Source: Pseudomonadota bacterium (GTDB lineage: Bacteria; Pseudomonadota; Gammaproteobacteria; Burkholderiales; Burkholderiaceae_C). Taken from it: a stretch of 54,874 nt of DNA. Of the stretch, positions 11,656 to 54,874 are shown piece after piece; positions within the stretch are counted from its first letter, which is position 1, and the number at the start of each line of letters is the position of its first letter. The stretch lies in NCBI GenBank assembly GCA_030535425.1, contig JAUNHQ010000013.1, positions 1-54,874 on the forward strand, read 5' to 3'. Position numbers and translations under genes: made by a program. A model generated the notes under the pieces. That model saw only the letters and a program-made list of their open reading frames with translations, had not been told where the DNA came from and did no database searches.

Positions 11656-11710
11656 AAGCGCCGCGCGCGCTTGCATGGCGTATGGCTCTGCGCGTGATGT
11701 CGCTTTAGTG

Positions 11711-11763
11711 AAAAGGCTTTTTGCGCGCGATTGATAAGGGTTTTAAGCTATACAAAATATAGC
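11711..11763 (+). repeat. Dispersed repeat copy 2 (AAGGG subtype), convergent junction
   Basis: Starts AAAAGGC, has TTGCGCGC, then AAGGGTTTTAAGCTAT and closes with ATAGC. It lies between the 3' ends of the nitronate monooxygenase gene and cphA. The AGCTAT/ATAGC arms can form an AT-rich hairpin. Confidence 0.85.
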
Positions 11764-19238: not shown

Positions 19239-19744
19239 GCGACAACACCGCCGACAACACCCCCTTGTCCACCGCCAGCGCCCCCGGCTTCGGGCTGCGC
19301 CGCGACACGTTTGGCCGCCTGGTGCTGACCGACGCGCAAGGGCGCGAACACGTGGGCGTGGTGGCCGTGCGCGCCTTTCCTATTGCCGCGCCGGATGAGG
19401 GCATCAGCCTGGTCGATGCCGACGGCCACGAACTGGCCTGGGTGCCCAGCCTGCCCGCGCTGCCTGGGCCGCTGCGCGAGCTGCTGGCCGAGGCGCTGCA
19501 ACAGCGCGAATTCATGCCCCGCCTGCTGCGCGTGCATGCCGTCAGCAGCTTCGTTACCCCCAGCACCTGGCAGGTGCAGACCGACCGCGGCCCGGCGCAG
19601 TTCGTGCTCAAGGGTGAAGAAGACATCCGCCGCCTGGGCCCCGGCCTGCTGATCGTCAACGACGCGCACGGCGTGCAATACCTCATTCAAGACCTGCACG
19701 CCATGGACCGCCACAGCCGCAAGCTGCTGGACCGGTTTTTATAA
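19235..19744 (+). CDS. Cyanophycin-associated DUF1854 family protein
   Basis: The 169-residue cytosolic protein starts with an ATG that overlaps the ABC gene's TGA (ATGA), so the two are translationally coupled. Its body (FGRLVLTDAQGREHVGVVAVRAFPIAAPDEGISLVDADGHEL, residues about 28-68, then VHAVSSFVTPSTWQVQTDRGPAQFVLKGEEDIRRL) matches what I know of DUF1854. It has no signal peptide or membrane segment. The aspartate-rich turns and a DxHxMDRHSRKLLDRFL-type C-terminal helix are characteristic. Co-occurrence with the ABC protein next to cphA genes suggests a shared role in cyanophycin handling. The molecular function is unknown. Confidence 0.87.
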   Translation: MSDNTADNTPLSTASAPGFGLRRDTFGRLVLTDAQGREHVGVVAVRAFPIAAPDEGISLVDADGHELAWVPSLPALPGPLRELLAEALQQREFMPRLLRVHAVSSFVTPSTWQVQTDRGPAQFVLKGEEDIRRLGPGLLIVNDAHGVQYLIQDLHAMDRHSRKLLDRFL

Positions 19745-19798
19745 AAAAACGGCAATTGCGCGCTTCTGGTAAGGGTTTTAAGCTATATTTAATATAGC
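19743..19798 (+). repeat. Dispersed repeat copy 3 (AAGGG subtype), convergent junction
   Basis: Begins at the stop codon of the DUF1854 gene and reads ACGGCAATTGCGCGC, AAGGGTTTTAAGCTAT, ATAGC. It lies between the 3' ends of DUF1854 and the second Bug gene. A GC stem-loop follows (CCGCCCGT 19809-19816 with ACGGGCGG 19824-19831) without a T tract. Confidence 0.85.
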
Positions 19799-22584: not shown

Positions 22585-23937
22585 ATGACTATCAAAACCA
22601 TAGCTGCTACCACGCTGCTGGTGTGCGCAAACGCCATTTTTCATGCCCAGCCCGCCCACGCCGCCATGCCCATTGAACACTGGGTACAGCCCAGCGGCGC
22701 GCAAGTGTGGCTGGTGCAAAGCCCGGCCATCCCCATGCTGGATGTGCAACTGGACTTTGACGCTGGCGAGCGGCGCGACCCGCCCGGCCAAAGCGGCCTG
22801 GCCAACGCCGCCGCCGCCATGACCAGCAAAGGCGTAGCGCCCCAAGGCCCGCTGCCCGCGCTGGACGAAAACCAGCTCGGCCAGGCCTGGGCCGACCTGG
22901 GCGCCAGCTTTGGCTGCGGCGCCAGCAACGACCGCCTCAGCTGCAAGCTGCGCACCCTGACCGACCCCGCCTTGCTGCCCCAAAGCGTGCAACTGGCCAG
23001 CCGCCAGCTGGGCACCCCCAGCTTCACCCCCGCCGTGTGGCAGCGTGAACGCGCGCGCTGGTCCGCCAGCATTCAAGAATCCCTCACCCGCCCCGCCACC
23101 GTGGCCGCCCGCGCCTTTGACAGCGCCGTGTACGGCAGCCACCCCTACGGCGCCCACGCTACGCCACAAAGCCTGGCGCGCATCGACGCGGCCGCACTGC
23201 GGCGCTTTTACGGCCAGCACGTGCAAGCCTGCCGGGCCAAAGCCAGCGTCGTCGGCGCCGTCACCCGCGAGCAGGCCGACCGCATCGTCACCGAACTGCT
23301 CTCGCGCCTGCCCGCCAGCGGCCCCTGCGCCGCGCTGCCCGCCGTGGCCGAAGTGCCCGCACTCGCGGCCCCCGTGACCGAGCGCATCGCCATGCCCACC
23401 GCGCAATCGCACGTACTCATCGGCCAGCCCGGCTACAAGCGCAGTGATCCTGATTTCTTCGCCCTGCTGGTGGGCAACCACATCCTGGGCGGCGGGGGCT
23501 TTACCTCGCGCCTGATGCAGCAAGTGCGCGAGCAGCGCGGCCTGAGCTACAGCGTATACAGCCACTTCCAGCCCGGCCTGCACGCCGGCGCCTTCACCAT
23601 CGGCCTGCAAACCAAGCCCGACCAGGCCGCGCAAGCCGTGCAAGTGGCTCAGCAGGTGCTGGCCGACTTCGTGCGTGACGGCCCCAGCGCCGACGAGCTG
23701 CAAGCGGCCAAGGACAACCTCATCGGCGGCTTTGCCCTGCGCCTGGACAGCAACGCCAAGCTGCTGGGCAACGTGGCCAACATCGCCTGGAACGGCCTGC
23801 CGCTGGACTACCTGGACACCTGGACGCGGCACGTGGAACAGGTCAGCGCCGCCGACGTGCGCCGCGCCTTCGCCCGCGTGCTGCAACCCGAGCGCATGGT
23901 CAACGTGATCGTGGGCGGGCCAGCCAGCCAACCCTGA
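22585..23937 (+). CDS. M16-family protein, non-catalytic partner subunit
   Basis: The 450-residue protein is exported: MTIKTIAATTLLVCANAIFHA and QPAHAA give an N-region, hydrophobic core and an Ala-x-Ala cleavage site. The HxxEH motif of active M16 peptidases is replaced: at that place the sequence reads PPGQSGLANAAAAMTSKG. The C-terminal half has the glycine-rich GGGGFTSRLMQQVREQRGLSYSVYS typical of partner subunits that help bind substrate. It follows the active M16 gene by 44 bp. Its first 19 codons coincide with a reverse-oriented copy of the dispersed repeat (22588-22642), so the signal peptide seems to be repeat-derived. Confidence 0.88.
   Translation: MTIKTIAATTLLVCANAIFHAQPAHAAMPIEHWVQPSGAQVWLVQSPAIPMLDVQLDFDAGERRDPPGQSGLANAAAAMTSKGVAPQGPLPALDENQLGQAWADLGASFGCGASNDRLSCKLRTLTDPALLPQSVQLASRQLGTPSFTPAVWQRERARWSASIQESLTRPATVAARAFDSAVYGSHPYGAHATPQSLARIDAAALRRFYGQHVQACRAKASVVGAVTREQADRIVTELLSRLPASGPCAALPAVAEVPALAAPVTERIAMPTAQSHVLIGQPGYKRSDPDFFALLVGNHILGGGGFTSRLMQQVREQRGLSYSVYSHFQPGLHAGAFTIGLQTKPDQAAQAVQVAQQVLADFVRDGPSADELQAAKDNLIGGFALRLDSNAKLLGNVANIAWNGLPLDYLDTWTRHVEQVSAADVRRAFARVLQPERMVNVIVGGPASQP
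22588..22642 (-). repeat. Dispersed repeat copy 4, embedded in the signal-peptide codons of an M16 gene
   Basis: Compared with the reverse complement of the copy at 41609-41665, 36 of 54 positions agree without gaps (hand count). The ends agree best: 17/20 over CTAT...CATAGCTNCT and 15/17 over GCGCAAACG...TTTTT. The middle is diverged. The length is the same as in free copies. The match begins directly after the ATG. Confidence 0.6.
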
Positions 23938-23977
23938 AAGGGGCGGCCTTGTCACACAGGTTTTGGGTTGTGAATAA

Positions 23978-24031
23978 GAAAAGGCCATTTTCGCGCAATA
24001 CATAAGGGTTTTTAGCTATGTAAATAGTAGC
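23978..24031 (+). repeat. Dispersed repeat copy 5 (AAGGG subtype), between same-strand genes
   Basis: GAAAAGGCCATTTTCGCGC, then AAGGGTTTTTAGCTAT and a slightly diverged end TAGTAGC. It lies after the M16 pair and before the FAD oxidoreductase gene, where it could end the M16 transcript. Confidence 0.8.
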
Positions 24032-30634: not shown

Positions 30635-30684
30635 TGCTATTGATAACGTAGCTGGCAGCGCCTGATGGACGGGCGCTGCCAAGG
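30635..30684 (-). repeat. Dispersed repeat copy 6 (inner-palindrome subtype), inside the nap operon
   Basis: On the plus strand it reads GCTATTGATAACGTAGCT, then a strong 9-bp stem GGCAGCGCC (30654-30662)/GGCGCTGCC (30672-30680) and AAGGC. It fills the napA-napG gap. In the mRNA the stem could protect the napA 3' end or reduce read-through to napGHBC. Confidence 0.7.
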
Positions 30685-30686
30685 CA

Positions 30687-33239
30687 TCAGGCTTTGACGA
30701 CCTTGACGGCACACTTTTTGAAGTCGGTTTCTTTCGACAGCGGGCAGGTGGCGTCCAGCGTGAGTTTGTTGATGAGGCGGCTTTCGTCAAAGAAAGCGGC
30801 GTACACCAGGCCGCGCGGCACTTTGTTGCGGCCCCGGGTTTCCAGCTGCATCAGCACGTCGCCCCGGCGCGAGGCGATCTTGACCTGCATGCCGCGCTGC
30901 AATTTGCGGTCGCGCGCGTCGTCGGGGTGCATGTACAGCACGGCCTCGGGCACGGCGCGGTGCAGCTCGGCCACGCGGCGGGTCATGGAGCCGGTGTGCC
31001 AGTGCTCCAGCACGCGGCCGGTGCAGAACCACAGGTCGTATTCCTTGTCCGGCGCTTCGGCAGCGGGCTGGTAGGGCAGGGCAAAGATGACGGCCTTGCC
31101 GTCTTTGTGGCCGTAGAACTTGAAGTCCTCGCCTTTTTTCACGTAGGGGTCGTAGCCCTCGCGGTAGCGCCACAGGGTTTCTTTGCCGTTCACCACGGGC
31201 CAGCGCAGGCCGCGCGCTTCGTGATAGACGTCAAACGGGGCCAGATCGTGCGCGTGGCCGCGGCCAAATTCGGCGTATTCCTCGAACAGGCCTTTTTGCA
31301 CGTAGTAGCCAGCGGCTTTCGAGTCGTCGCTGACGTAGTCCTTGATGTACTTGCCGTTGAGCTTGCTGGTGTCGGCCAGGGGGTATTTGTTTACCTTGCC
31401 GTTTTTGAACAGCACGTCGTACAGCGTTTTGCCCTTGAGCTCGGGCTTTTTGGCAATCAGCTCGGCGGGCCAGACTTCTTCCACCTTGAAGCGCTTGGAA
31501 AACTCCATGTACTGCCACAGATCGCTCTTGGCCTGGCCGGGGGGCGCGACCTGCTGGCGCCAGAACTGGGTGCGGCGCTCGGCGTTGCCAAAGGCGCCTT
31601 CTTTTTCCACCCACATGGCCGTGGGCAGCACCAGGTCGGCAGCCATGGCGCTGACGGTGGGGTAGGGGTCGCTCACCACCACAAAGGCCTTGGGGTTGCG
31701 CCAGCCGGGGTAGATCTCTTCGTTGATGTTGGGGCCGGCCTGCATGTTGTTGGTGGTGCTGGTCCAGTAGCAGGTCATCTTGCCGTCTTTGAGGGCGCGG
31801 CTTTGCGCCACGGCGTGGTAGCCGCCGCCGGAAGGAATGGTGCCTTCGGGCAGTTGCCAGATTTTTTCGGCAATCTTGCGGTGCTCGGGGTTGGCCACCA
31901 CCATGTCGGCGGGCAGGCGGTGGATGAAGGTGCCCACCTCGCGCGCAGTGCCGCAGGCGCTGGGCTGGCCCGTGAGGCTGAAGGGGCCGCAGCCGGGGGT
32001 GCTGATCTTGCCGGTGAGCAGGTGGATGTTGTAGACGAGGTTGTTGGCCCAGGTGCCGCGCGTGTGCTGGTTAAAGCCCATGGTCCAGAAGCTCACCACC
32101 TTGATCTTGGGGTCGGCGTAGAGCTTGGCCAGCTCTTCCAGCTGGCGCTCGGGCACGCCGGAGATTTCGCTGGTTTTCTTCAGCGTGTATTCGCTAACGA
32201 ACTTGGCAAATTCTTCAAAGCTGATGGGGTCGGCCGCGCCGGGGTTGCCCTTGGGCTTGCCGTCGGCGCCGGGGTAGCCGTTTTGCGTGGCGTCTTTTTC
32301 CAGCGCATGGCCGGGGCGCAGGCCGTAGCCAATGTCGGTCACGCCTTTTTTGAAGTTGACGTGCTTTTTGATGAAGTCCTGGTTGACCTTCTTGTTGGTG
32401 ATGATGTAGTTGGCGATGTAGTTCATGATCGCCAGGTCGCTCTGCGGGATGAAGGTCATGGGCAGGTCGGCCAGGTCGTAGCTGCGGTGCTCGTAGGTGG
32501 AGAGCACGGCCACCTTGCAGCTGGGGTGCGACAGGCGTCGGTCGGTGATGCGGCTCCACAGGATGGGGTGCATCTCGGCCATGTTGCTGCCCCACAGCAC
32601 AAAGGCGTCGGCCTGCTCAATGTCGTCGTAGCAGCCCATGGGCTCGTCCATGCCAAAGGTGCGCATGAAGCCCACCACGGCGCTGGCCATGCAGTGGCGC
32701 GCGTTGGGGTCGATGTTGTTGGAGCGGAAACCCGCCTTCCACAGCTTGGCGGCGGCGTAGCCTTCCCAGATGGGCCACTGGCCAGAGCCGAACATGCCCA
32801 CCTGGTTGGGGTCTTGCTTGATGGCTTCTTTCCACTTTTGCGCCATCACGTCAAAGGCTTCGTCCCAGCTCACGGGGGTGAAGTCGCCGTTTTTGTCGTA
32901 CTTGCCGTTTTTCTTGCGCAGCAGCGGCGTGGTCAGGCGGTCTTTGCCGTACAGGATTTTGGAGAGGAAGTAACCCTTGATGCAGTTCAGGCCACGGTTG
33001 ACGGGCGCTTCAGGGTCGCCTTGGGTGGCGACGATGCGGCCGTCTTGCACGCCCACCATCACCGAGCAGCCGGTGCCGCAAAAGCGGCAGGGCGCTTTGT
33101 CCCAGCGCACGGCGCCGGGGGTGTTGCCCGCAGGGGCCGTCTGGCCCTGGGCCACCACGGGAATGCCCACGGTGGCTGCGGCGGCGGTCATGGCCTGGGT
33201 CTTGAGAAAGGCACGGCGGTCGGTGCTGGTCGTCATCAT
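30687..33239 (-). CDS. napA: Periplasmic nitrate reductase catalytic subunit
   Basis: The 850-residue protein has a Tat signal ([17 protein letters not shown]) and the 4Fe-4S site CRFCGTGC with Cys 51, 54, 58 and a fourth Cys at 86. The molybdenum ligand is Cys 183 in [12 protein letters not shown], and the bis-MGD binding folds run throughout. The length and the [22 protein letters not shown] and [19 protein letters not shown] phrases match NapA. It reduces nitrate to nitrite in the periplasm. The ATG at 33239 overlaps the napD stop (ATGA); a second ATG follows directly at 33236. Confidence 0.97.
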
Positions 33240-35974: not shown

Positions 35975-36031
35975 GCTATTTTTTTGTATAGCTTAAAACC
36001 TTGATGGATAGCGCGCAAAAGGCTTTTTTTG
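35975..36031 (-). repeat. Dispersed repeat copy 7 (AAGGG subtype), convergent junction
   Basis: On the plus strand GCTAT, T-rich loop, ATAGC, TTAAAACCTT, then GCGCGCAAAAGGC and seven T: the AAGGG subtype in reverse. It lies between the 3' ends of dtd and ybeY. The T tract follows the dtd reading direction. Confidence 0.85.
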
Positions 36032-36060
36032 TTGGGGTTTTTAAAGGGCTGGGACGGGTG

Positions 36061-41608: not shown

Positions 41609-41665
41609 ACAAAAAAGGCCGTTTGCGCTTGTCTGTCAAGCGCAAGAAGCTATGTTTTTAATAGT
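41609..41665 (+). repeat. Dispersed repeat copy 8 (inner-palindrome subtype), inside the moxR operon
   Basis: AAAAAAGGCCGTTTGCGCTTG, then CAAGCGC forming a 7-bp stem with GCGCTTG, then AAGCTATG and AATAG. It is the best reference for the subtype and the closest relative of the copies inside glnD and the M16 gene. On the operon (minus) strand the stem is followed by a T run, so it may reduce moxR read-through into DUF58-tgpA. Confidence 0.85.
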
Positions 41666-43601: not shown

Positions 43602-43635
43602 GGTTTAGTTCACACCGTTCGGGTGGTGTGGTCAA

Positions 43636-43690
43636 GAAAAAGGCCATTTGCGCGCTCCTGACAAGGGTTTGTAGCTATATAAAATGTAGC
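43636..43690 (+). repeat. Dispersed repeat copy 9 (AAGGG subtype), convergent junction
   Basis: GAAAAAGGCCATTTGCGCGC, ACAAGGGTTTGTAGCTAT, TGTAGC. It lies between the 3' ends of the HDAC-like and quinone oxidoreductase genes. Confidence 0.87.
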
Positions 43691-49257: not shown

Positions 49258-49292
49258 GGGCTATCAGGCGATGATGGCGGGGTGGATAGGTA

Positions 49293-49348
49293 TAAAAATG
49301 GCCATTTGCGCGCATCTGACAAGGGTTTTTAGCTATTGATTAAATAGC
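49293..49348 (+). repeat. Dispersed repeat copy 10 (AAGGG subtype), convergent junction
   Basis: TAAAAATGGCCATTTGCGCGC-like start, ACAAGGGTTTTTAGCTAT, AATAGC. It lies between the 3' ends of the exosortase-associated gene and the TolC-type gene. Confidence 0.87.
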
Positions 49349-53404: not shown

Positions 53405-53442
53405 TGCCGGAAGGGATGCCGCCTGGGCTCTTTTTTATGGAA

Positions 53443-53498
53443 TAAAAAAGGCCATTTGCGCGCATTACATAAGGGTTTTGAGCTATATAAAATATAGC
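53443..53498 (+). repeat. Dispersed repeat copy 11 (AAGGG subtype), convergent junction
   Basis: TAAAAAAGGCCATTTGCGCGC-like start, ATAAGGGTTTTGAGCTAT, ATATAGC. Nearly identical over most of its length to the copies at 43636 and 49293. It lies between the small secreted protein gene and glnD. Confidence 0.87.
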
Positions 53499-53586: not shown

Positions 53587-54874
53587 CTACTGGCCCGGTG
53601 CCGTGCCATCGCTCAGCACGGCCAGCAGTTCCTGCTCAATGGCCAACTGGGCCTTGACGTGCTGCAGGGACGCGCCTTGCAGCAGGAACATGTCTTCCAC
53701 GCGCTCGCCCAAGGTGGTGATTTTGGCCAGCTCCAGGTTGATGTGGTGGGCGGCCAGCACGCGGGCGATGCCGTAGAGCAGGCCGGCGCGGTCGCTGGTG
53801 GTGATGGTGAGCAGCCAGTGCTGGGCCTTGTCGTCGGGGCGCAGGTCGATGCGCGGGGGCACGGGAAAGCTGCGCACGCGGCGCGAGGCGCGGCCCAGGC
53901 GCGGGGCGGGCAGGGGGGCGCTGCGGGCCAGGGCGCGGGGCATGTCGGCTTCGACCATGTGGATGTGCTCGCGGTAGTGCTCCTGTCCGGTGTCGCTGAC
54001 GAGCTGGAAGGTGTCCAGCGCGTGGCCGTCGCGCGTGGTGTGGATGCGCGCGTCCAGAATGGAAAAGCCCGCGCGGTCGAAGTAGCCGCAGATGCGCGCA
54101 AACAAATCGGGCTGGTCGCTGGCGTACACCAGCACTTGCAGCCCTTCGCCCAGGGGCGAGAGGCGCGCGCGCACGATGGCGGGGCTGTCAGGGGAATCAT
54201 TTTGGCCGTTTGCGCTTGTCTGGTGCGTGGCAGCAGCTCTTTTTTCTGTAGCGTCCGGGTCTGAGTTGGCGAGCAGGGGCGAGAGCACGCGGGCGTGCCA
54301 GGCGATGTCGCCCGCGTCGTGGCGCATGAAGTAGCTCACTTCCAGCGTGTCCCACAGCGCGCGGTGGGCGCCGGGCGGCACGGATGCGAGGGCCAGCAGC
54401 TCCAGCGCCTGGCGTTTGCGCGATTCGATGAGGGCGCCGGGGTCGGGGGCGCGTCCGCCCAGGGCGCGCACGGTGAGCTGGTAAAGGTCTTGCAGGAGCT
54501 TGTCTTTCCAGGCGTTCCAGACCTTGGGGCTGGTGCCGCGCACGTCGGCCACGGTGAGCAGGTACAAGGCGGTGAGCTGGCGTTCGTTGCCCACGCGGGC
54601 GGCAAAGGCGGCGATGACGTCGGGGTCGCTCAGGTCTTCTTTTTGCGCGATCTGGCTCATGCTCAGGTGTTCGCGCACCAGAAATTCCAGCAGCCGCGCG
54701 TCTTCGGGCGCGATGCCGTGCTGCTTGCAAAAGCGCCGCACTTCCTGCGCGCCCAGCTCGGAGTGGTCGCCCCCGCGGCCTTTGGCGATGTCGTGAAACA
54801 GCGCGGCGGTGTAGAGGATCCAGGGCTTGTCCCAGCCGGCGGCCAGTTGCGAGCAAAAGGGGTATTCGTGCGCA
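53587..54874 (-). CDS. glnD: Bifunctional PII uridylyltransferase/uridylyl-removing enzyme, C-terminal part
   Basis: About 429 codons are present and the 5' part lies beyond the window. The first visible residues include an HD-domain segment FHDIAKGRGGDHSELG, the uridylyl-removing site. This is followed by the helical domain and two C-terminal ACT domains (QVLVYASDQPDLFARICGYFDRAGFSILDARIHTTRDGHALDTF in about the middle, and LLTITTSDRAGLLYGIARVLAAHHINLELAKITT near the end), which sense glutamine. GlnD controls PII and so nitrogen regulation. The linker before the first ACT domain holds an extra stretch (EKRAAATHQTSANGQND) that coincides with a copy of the dispersed repeat. Confidence 0.95.
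   Translation of the reverse strand, partial: AHEYPFCSQLAAGWDKPWILYTAALFHDIAKGRGGDHSELGAQEVRRFCKQHGIAPEDARLLEFLVREHLSMSQIAQKEDLSDPDVIAAFAARVGNERQLTALYLLTVADVRGTSPKVWNAWKDKLLQDLYQLTVRALGGRAPDPGALIESRKRQALELLALASVPPGAHRALWDTLEVSYFMRHDAGDIAWHARVLSPLLANSDPDATEKRAAATHQTSANGQNDSPDSPAIVRARLSPLGEGLQVLVYASDQPDLFARICGYFDRAGFSILDARIHTTRDGHALDTFQLVSDTGQEHYREHIHMVEADMPRALARSAPLPAPRLGRASRRVRSFPVPPRIDLRPDDKAQHWLLTITTSDRAGLLYGIARVLAAHHINLELAKITTLGERVEDMFLLQGASLQHVKAQLAIEQELLAVLSDGTAPGQ
54199..54252 (+). repeat. Dispersed repeat copy 12, in frame inside glnD
   Basis: The stretch 54204-54222 (GGCCGTTTGCGCTTGTCTG) is identical over 19 nt to 41617-41635 of the copy in the moxR operon. The following 29 positions agree at 16 without gaps, including AGCAGCT...TTTTT and the closing TAG. 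The reading frame of glnD stays open through it. Confidence 0.75.

Follow-up and report, generated by a model that had tools for sequence, protein, structure and literature searches.

An In-Frame Copy of an Abundant REP-Like Repeat in the GlnD Linker and Copies of the Same Family at Conserved Sites in Unrelated Genes

Dispersed repeats within genes

One would expect purging to keep dispersed repeats out of genes. Among the described systems, the GTAG/CGTC REPs are short, palindromic, present in many copies and located mostly 3' of genes (Di Nocera et al., 2013; PMC3733652). In the same account, some REPs lie wholly within ORFs of known proteins in several species, for which flexible linkers or loops were suggested, the repeat often supplies TAG stop codons, and one same-site case is given, in which the recB genes of X. 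campestris and X. oryzae hold different REPs at about the same position. Rickettsia palindromic elements (RPEs) are described as 105–146 bp long (PMC2229807), and both RPEs and other small elements are reported to be fused in frame (PMC2229807; PMC10969869). In Yersinia, a 168-bp MITE at one locus, YPO1552, partly forms a signal peptide (PMC2229807). BREs are dispersed in Betaproteobacteria including Comamonadaceae, some copies lying within coding sequences, and measure about 90 bp with a mean GC content of 69% in Bordetella (PMC3110155). As in-frame REPs and RPEs are already known, the kind of event considered here is known as well.

Here, we focus on a window of 54,874 nt (contig JAUNHQ010000013.1 of assembly GCA_030535425.1) from an Ottowia-like genome, in which a stretch of glnD had been predicted to be a repeat copy turned into protein. 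The repeat unit is about 55 nt long. It resembles the GTAG REPs in being abundant, in lying mainly 3' of genes and in having some copies in ORFs, whereas its tag is mostly ATAG, which places it outside the GTAG definition. Unlike those REPs, it also occupies orthologous sites that are conserved across a genus in six genes, each site showing a single strand and frame but for one partial match. The main text of Di Nocera et al. (2013), supplements aside, does not mention Burkholderia, Acidovorax, Delftia or Polaromonas. The likeness to RPEs drawn in the original prediction holds for the way of working, as a palindromic element lies in frame within many unrelated proteins, but does not extend to membership of that family, given a unit of ~55 nt against 105–146 bp; furthermore, some nine in ten sampled copies are located outside called genes. 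BRE was rejected as the identity of the repeat on length and GC content, the comparison being made with the published description rather than between sequences. As with the Yersinia element, a mobile repeat appears to supply part of a signal peptide, here a putative one in an M16 peptidase, but the element-coded N-terminus occurs in 11/26 orthologues and not at one locus. What is unusual is that the same sites are reused across species, that one frame serves loops as well as what is probably a signal peptide, and that coding copies mostly match the subtype of their genome. Among the records listed by our literature searches, there was no description of the ~55-nt family, of its orthologous sites over a genus or of subtype matching; a core sequence of the repeat, used as a query, yielded no paper, and neither did insertions in the GlnD linker.

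The repeat family in the source genome and its relatives

In 436,874 bp of the source genome, window included and glnD masked, an iterated profile detected 87 copies (E < 1e-3) that do not overlap. Two models together give a density of about 206 copies per Mb, corresponding by extrapolation to almost 700 in the whole genome; in a whole-genome search, 150 of 2528 candidates were scored and all 150 matched. Most sampled copies (76/87) are located outside called genes, their neighbours being convergent in 26 cases, codirectional in 41 and divergent in five, with four copies at sample edges. The family is thus found mostly 3' of genes: 67 of the 72 non-coding copies with both neighbours called adjoin at least one gene 3' end, and the other five are the divergent cases. 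The counts of 11/87 and 15/364 obtained with the simple gene caller include spurious calls (e.g., L142:7049–8140 and L144:7796–9016). At L142:8109–8124, an element apparently provides the TAG stop of a gene, which we take to be FabH-like, a feature also described for GTAG REPs.

Within the window, ten intergenic copies were recognized by profile matches. Seven are on the minus strand, at 11709–11763, 19741–19798, 23974–24031, 41609–41664 (hairpin type), 43635–43690, 49292–49348 and 53441–53498, the last lying downstream of glnD, some 90 nt from its stop; three are on the plus strand, at 2072–2125 (hairpin type), 30636–30689 (a GC-rich palindromic variant) and 35975–36033. The GC content is 33–43% in nine of these copies and 59% in one. 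Rfam gave no match in the window at the gathering threshold.

Samples of other genomes differ in density, with 159 copies per Mb in G012 (from 18,924 bp only), 158 in G027, 150 in G025, 58 in G004, 39 in G018, 33 in G002 and 29 in G019, and none in the 40,000 bp of G007. The exact core ATAGCTGCTNGCGCTTG is present in 33/200 genomes of the family, representing 25/141 genera, while the same core read backward is found in 0/200. Among 51 relatives' copies, the tag is ATAG in 39 cases and GTAG in six, and ATAG is present in 8/8 source-genome copies of the subtype to which the glnD copy belongs. Two frames of the relatives' consensus, +0 and one antisense, are free of stops. In the main source-genome subtype, the consensus contains stops in frame +0, and hence some subtypes are not readable in that frame.

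In RNA folding, the 64 nt around the copy at 41609–41664 reach −16.6 kcal/mol (z −3.37) and the relatives' consensus reaches z −1.94, while a main-subtype copy gives z +0.15. The 9-bp stem count is 7.61 for the relatives' copies vs. 6.77 for shuffles; the eight-copy source-genome subtype shows no such excess (6.0 vs. 6.68). The glnD copy folds no better than shuffles (z +0.56). The reading that the coding copy has lost an RNA hairpin was considered and rejected, as five intergenic copies near the glnD subtype likewise fold no better than shuffles (z −0.16 to +1.89).

The copy in the GlnD linker

The minus-strand gene at 53587–54873 comprises the C-terminal 428 codons of glnD, with HD and ACT domains, and is open at the window edge. 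The GlnD family models NF002837 (E 4.3e-187) and TIGR01693 (E 8.8e-98) both match, with scores that stay under the full-length cut-offs owing to the truncation of the gene there. In the NF002837 alignment, query residues 1–420 span 394 profile positions, a net surplus of 26 residues over this span. Pfam places HD at residues 16–90 and ACT above the cut-off, with 355–410 as the best ACT stretch; a further ACT-like stretch at 241–309 scores below the cut-off. The repeat copy occupies 54199–54252 on the minus strand and is read in sense, frame 0 (GCT ACA GAA ...), as the 18 codons ATEKRAAATHQTSANGQN. These are residues 208–225 of the translated fragment (P0001), between the HD domain and the ACT-like stretch and thus, as had been proposed, ahead of the first ACT domain. 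The 19 bases said to be shared with another copy are indeed identical: CAGACAAGCGCAAACGGCC occurs exactly, on the minus strand, at both 54204–54222 and 41617–41635, and is the longest match of the glnD element anywhere else in the window. The expected gapless alignment at repeat length was also recovered, as the element, counted from 54252 (GCTAC...), aligns over 57 nt without gaps. It is identical to the copy beginning at 41664 at 37/57 positions and to the nearest of the source-genome intergenic copies compared (L153:2135, minus strand) at 42/57.

Stretch 54199–54252 is a diverged copy of the abundant ~55-nt REP-like repeat, in frame within the linker, and only the subtype profile scores it high. 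A profile of the ten window copies gives it 10 bits (E 0.044), a marginal value because most window copies belong to another subtype; the 75-copy source-genome profile gives 13.6 bits and the relatives' profile 8.3 bits. With a profile of the eight source-genome copies of its own subtype, from which glnD was left out, the score rises to 27.3 bits. The low scores with the generic profiles might be taken to indicate that an Ala/Ser-rich, GC-rich coding stretch resembles the repeat by chance. Against such chance likeness, which we consider highly improbable, stand the exact 19-nt match and two codon-shuffling designs of 1000 replicates each, in which 0/1000 reached 27.3 bits with the subtype profile; the maxima were 8.9 bits when codons of the whole gene were shuffled and 5.7 bits when those of the linker were. 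Moreover, matches of at least 12 bits occur in 8/96 distinct GlnD linkers, whereas none of the three profiles reaches this value in the 130,220 nt of remaining glnD sequence (best scores 5.6 bits with the source-genome, 10.7 with the relatives' and 10.9 with the subtype profile).

These 96 distinct linkers derive from 109 anchored loci, one further locus having no anchor and a duplicate gene being counted once. The matching linkers include L007 (34.8 bits), L023 (32.9), L005 (31.0), L006 (26.0), L069 (22.1), L002 (21.6) and that of the source genome, L001 (13.6); L009 has a partial match of 12.1 bits on the opposite strand, so that 7/8 elements are in sense, frame 0. A weaker match (8.9 bits) is present in L056 of Variovorax sp. 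PCZ-1, which, like L069 from a Comamonadaceae MAG, is outside the 29 genomes of the genus. The presence of the element in the same linker of other species argues that it is old or recurrent and not a private event. Between fixed anchors, the linker measures 54–120 residues among relatives, and therefore its length alone is no proof of insertion; long linkers without a match exist (e.g., L101 and L017), and the elements start at varying distances from the anchor. The original prediction expected a block of repeat length, present or absent with clean flanks. In the element-free G019 (L003), the linker is exactly 18 residues, or 54 nt, shorter (62 vs. 80), in agreement with the block; the flanks and the G019 linker are too diverged for a clean empty site to be called at glnD. 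The view of G019 as a sister of the window genome that has lost elements found no support in a six-protein tree computed with the element columns omitted. The pattern named as speaking against an insertion, the same linker sequence in relatives free of the repeat family, was not seen among the 96 distinct linkers, a comparison confined to linker sequences.

That the insert lies immediately before a regulator's first ACT domain, and that elements recur at this site, could suggest that the insert is selected for function, e.g., for tuning how the ACT sensing domains are spaced or how freely they move. We regard this as quite improbable, as linker length and sequence differ widely among relatives, 88/96 distinct linkers have no match and the same type of peptide is found in unrelated enzymes and a transporter. 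The insert may instead be near-neutral. The element would persist because the linker tolerates length change and frame 0 can be read as a stop-free peptide of small residues.

Copies in other genes, their origin and their history

A search for further coding copies, which had been proposed to gauge how general the event is, yielded six more conserved genes of the source genome, encoding an MFS transporter, a 383-aa protein, an M16 family peptidase, an allantoate amidohydrolase, a LytTR response regulator and a YgjP-like protein. Sites were counted in genus or family searches for orthologues at a cut-off of at least 12 bits. Pooled over glnD, M16, the 383-aa protein, MFS, LytTR and allantoate amidohydrolase, the element is present in 57/208 sequences. 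Coding frames beyond these sites gave two matches in 376,245 nt, a total that counts glnD and a few loci partly twice; both lie in the first 40 nt of frame L224, which reaches beyond the start of its gene. Each site shows a single strand and frame, except for the one partial GlnD match.

In the M16 peptidase gene (22585–23937, plus strand), the element occupies 22589–22641 on the same strand and encodes TIKTIAATTLLVCANAIF directly after the ATG. This N-terminus is probably a signal peptide, as judged by reading the sequence rather than by a prediction tool. The element is present in 11/26 orthologues, in sense, frame 0 in 11/11 and at one position in 9/11; the count leaves out an upstream copy, and the gene caller placed the M16 start downstream, missing the N-terminus. 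In L271, L275 and L280, a second or sole element copy is located about 160–215 nt before the anchor of the mature M16 protein, outside the N-terminal site.

The conserved 383-aa protein, presumably a patatin, has no match in Pfam or NCBIfam. One of its loops contains the element in 13/42 orthologues (8/14 within the genus and 5/28 in other genera), in 13/13 cases in sense, frame 0. Within the genus, the source genome and eight relatives (L225 included) share one codon offset, +2 after HLHLxY, while the five matches in other genera are at +5, +6 or +7. The latter come from 27 anchored loops and measure 26–37 residues; among the 22 other-genus loops without a match, 15 measure 7–15 and seven 18–47 residues. 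Fragments of the 383-aa gene are found at four places in G001 (C1, C2, C3 and C4; L225 and L227–L235), as if the gene were duplicated or carried on a multi-copy element.

The MFS transporter has the element in 9/12 orthologues, in a putative loop according to our reading of the protein rather than a tool, in sense, frame 0 in 9/9 and at one offset in 7/9, the two others being one codon off. In the LytTR response regulator, it directly follows the receiver domain in 11/16 orthologues and is antisense in 11/11. Allantoate amidohydrolase contains it in 5/16, in sense in 5/5 and in a frame different from frame 0. Here, the flanks are strictly conserved, 11/16 have no insert and the net gain is six residues, hence either the insertion was accompanied by base loss or local sequence was replaced. 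The YgjP-like gene shows antisense matches near the N-terminus in the source genome and 8/25 relatives' loci, a count without the matches in L399 and L402, where frames were wrongly picked. In the source genome, where alone it was examined, MetX has an element-coded C-terminal tail (L149:10179–10227). An antisense element-like match of 25.9 bits at L147:17947–17994 falls in a hydrophobic stretch of a gene that we assume to be an apolipoprotein N-acyltransferase.

That the glnD stretch is a REP-like element copy that landed in the HD-ACT linker, and that such copies landed likewise at tolerated sites elsewhere, is in our view very probable. A copy would once have landed in the flexible glnD linker on the sense strand and in a stop-free frame and would be read as an 18-residue hydrophilic spacer; in the same way, copies would have entered the equivalent linker of other species as well as tolerated positions in genes unrelated to glnD. 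The prediction of a repeat becoming in-frame protein-coding sequence is well supported, as far as sequence comparison reaches, by the subtype profile, the shuffles and the other coding copies. Spread of the copies might depend on a transposase of the Y1 type that works in trans. Of the 29 genomes of the genus, 21 contain a Y1_Tnp gene, 20 of them with scores exceeding the curated cut-off; the source genome has two matches. Element-like sequence (6.8–24.7 bits) adjoins the Y1_Tnp stop in 7/16 fetched loci (L296, L298, L301, L302, L304, L305, L306), and no element match was found at 5/16 (L300, L303, L309, L310, L311). Furthermore, GGGGTCAG repeats flank the Y1_Tnp gene, fitting the GGGGWSAS motif of the TIRYT group. 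The link of the repeat to this transposase is weak, and the label RAYT reflects our reading and not a tool result. The second source-genome Y1_Tnp gene (L297, on the 5.2-kb contig G000:C92) is flanked by GTAGGAGCGGGCTTGCCCGCGAT-type palindromes, downstream of the stop at about L297:1320–1478 and upstream of the start. These resemble GTAG REPs of the Pseudomonas type, a family other than the ~55-nt repeat, and horizontal transfer or contamination is possible at this locus. G027 has 20 matches to Y1_Tnp, vs. 0–5 in the other 28 genomes; several of the 20 are identical, and several are broken into two frames.

Coding copies tend to follow the subtype of their genome. In the source genome, 7/8 are of the source subtype, the exception being the YgjP-like copy (34.1 vs. 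35.9 bits, 1.8 bits the other way). Within the genus, 36/36 relatives' coding copies, typed at five sites, are of the relatives' subtype; these are detected copies only, and the relatives' profile itself draws on five of these genomes. Held-out intergenic copies were typed correctly in 94.7% of 75 cases for the source genome and 96.1% of 51 for the relatives, and 28/33 held-out source-genome copies outside the main subtype were typed to the source genome. The margin in favour of the source subtype is 5.3 bits for glnD, about 5 for allantoate amidohydrolase and 2.7 for LytTR. For L182, one of the allantoate relatives, the typing margin is just 1.7 bits, and L352 and L373, two of the five other-genus 383-aa copies, lean to the source type by 1–2 bits. 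Mean pairwise identity was discarded as a subtype test, since it does not discriminate for glnD (0.52 to source-genome copies vs. 0.53 to relatives' copies).

Concerted evolution, recurrent insertion and simple descent carry similar weight as accounts of these data. Under simple descent, each gene would have received one old insertion before the genus radiated, followed by vertical inheritance in which the coding copies only drifted. The genus-wide offset in the 383-aa protein and the near-constant positions in MFS and M16 speak for it, as do the single strand and frame kept at each site and the 27–33/57 nt that source-genome and relatives' glnD elements have in common. We lean against it while regarding it as possible, since subtype follows the genome, albeit with the modest margins given above, and since the same 383-aa loop has different offsets in other genera. 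The offsets suggest a single event within the genus and separate events between genera. Independent insertions that recur in a small set of tolerant linkers and loops would account for the latter and for the unequal distances of GlnD elements from the anchor, and the Xanthomonas recB pair provides a precedent (PMC3733652). Random insertion is, however, hardly expected to return to nearly the same position in the 383-aa protein, MFS and M16 within the genus, which makes recurrence rather unlikely.

An old insertion may also have been rewritten later by gene conversion or recombination with genomic copies. Rewriting would explain an unchanged site with a lineage-matched subtype, and the accuracy of held-out typing, near 95%, lends weight to the match. 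It is nevertheless weakened by the restriction of the 36 relatives' copies to detected ones and the origin of their profile, by the leaning of L352 and L373, by the equal mean identity of the glnD copy to both sets and by the presence of its AAACGGCCAAAAT tail in one relatives' copy as well. An element of ~55 nt is short for homologous recombination. On balance, we hold rewriting as such to be rather unlikely. More broadly, and tentatively, at somewhat less than an even chance, unrelated proteins might have loops, linkers and a signal peptide that evolve in concert with the repeat family, a REP-like, "protein-ready" element with a stop-free frame being repeatedly placed, and later rewritten, at the same tolerated sites.

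Spacers in proteins as different as a central nitrogen regulator, a transporter, a response regulator and enzymes come from one repeat family, which probably also provides a signal peptide; the sites are conserved across a genus. These sites form a natural test set for the passage of mobile DNA into protein, for protein sites that tolerate insertions and for repeats that possibly rewrite coding sequence. If the concerted reading is true, the proteins of each lineage would carry the current repeat subtype of that lineage.
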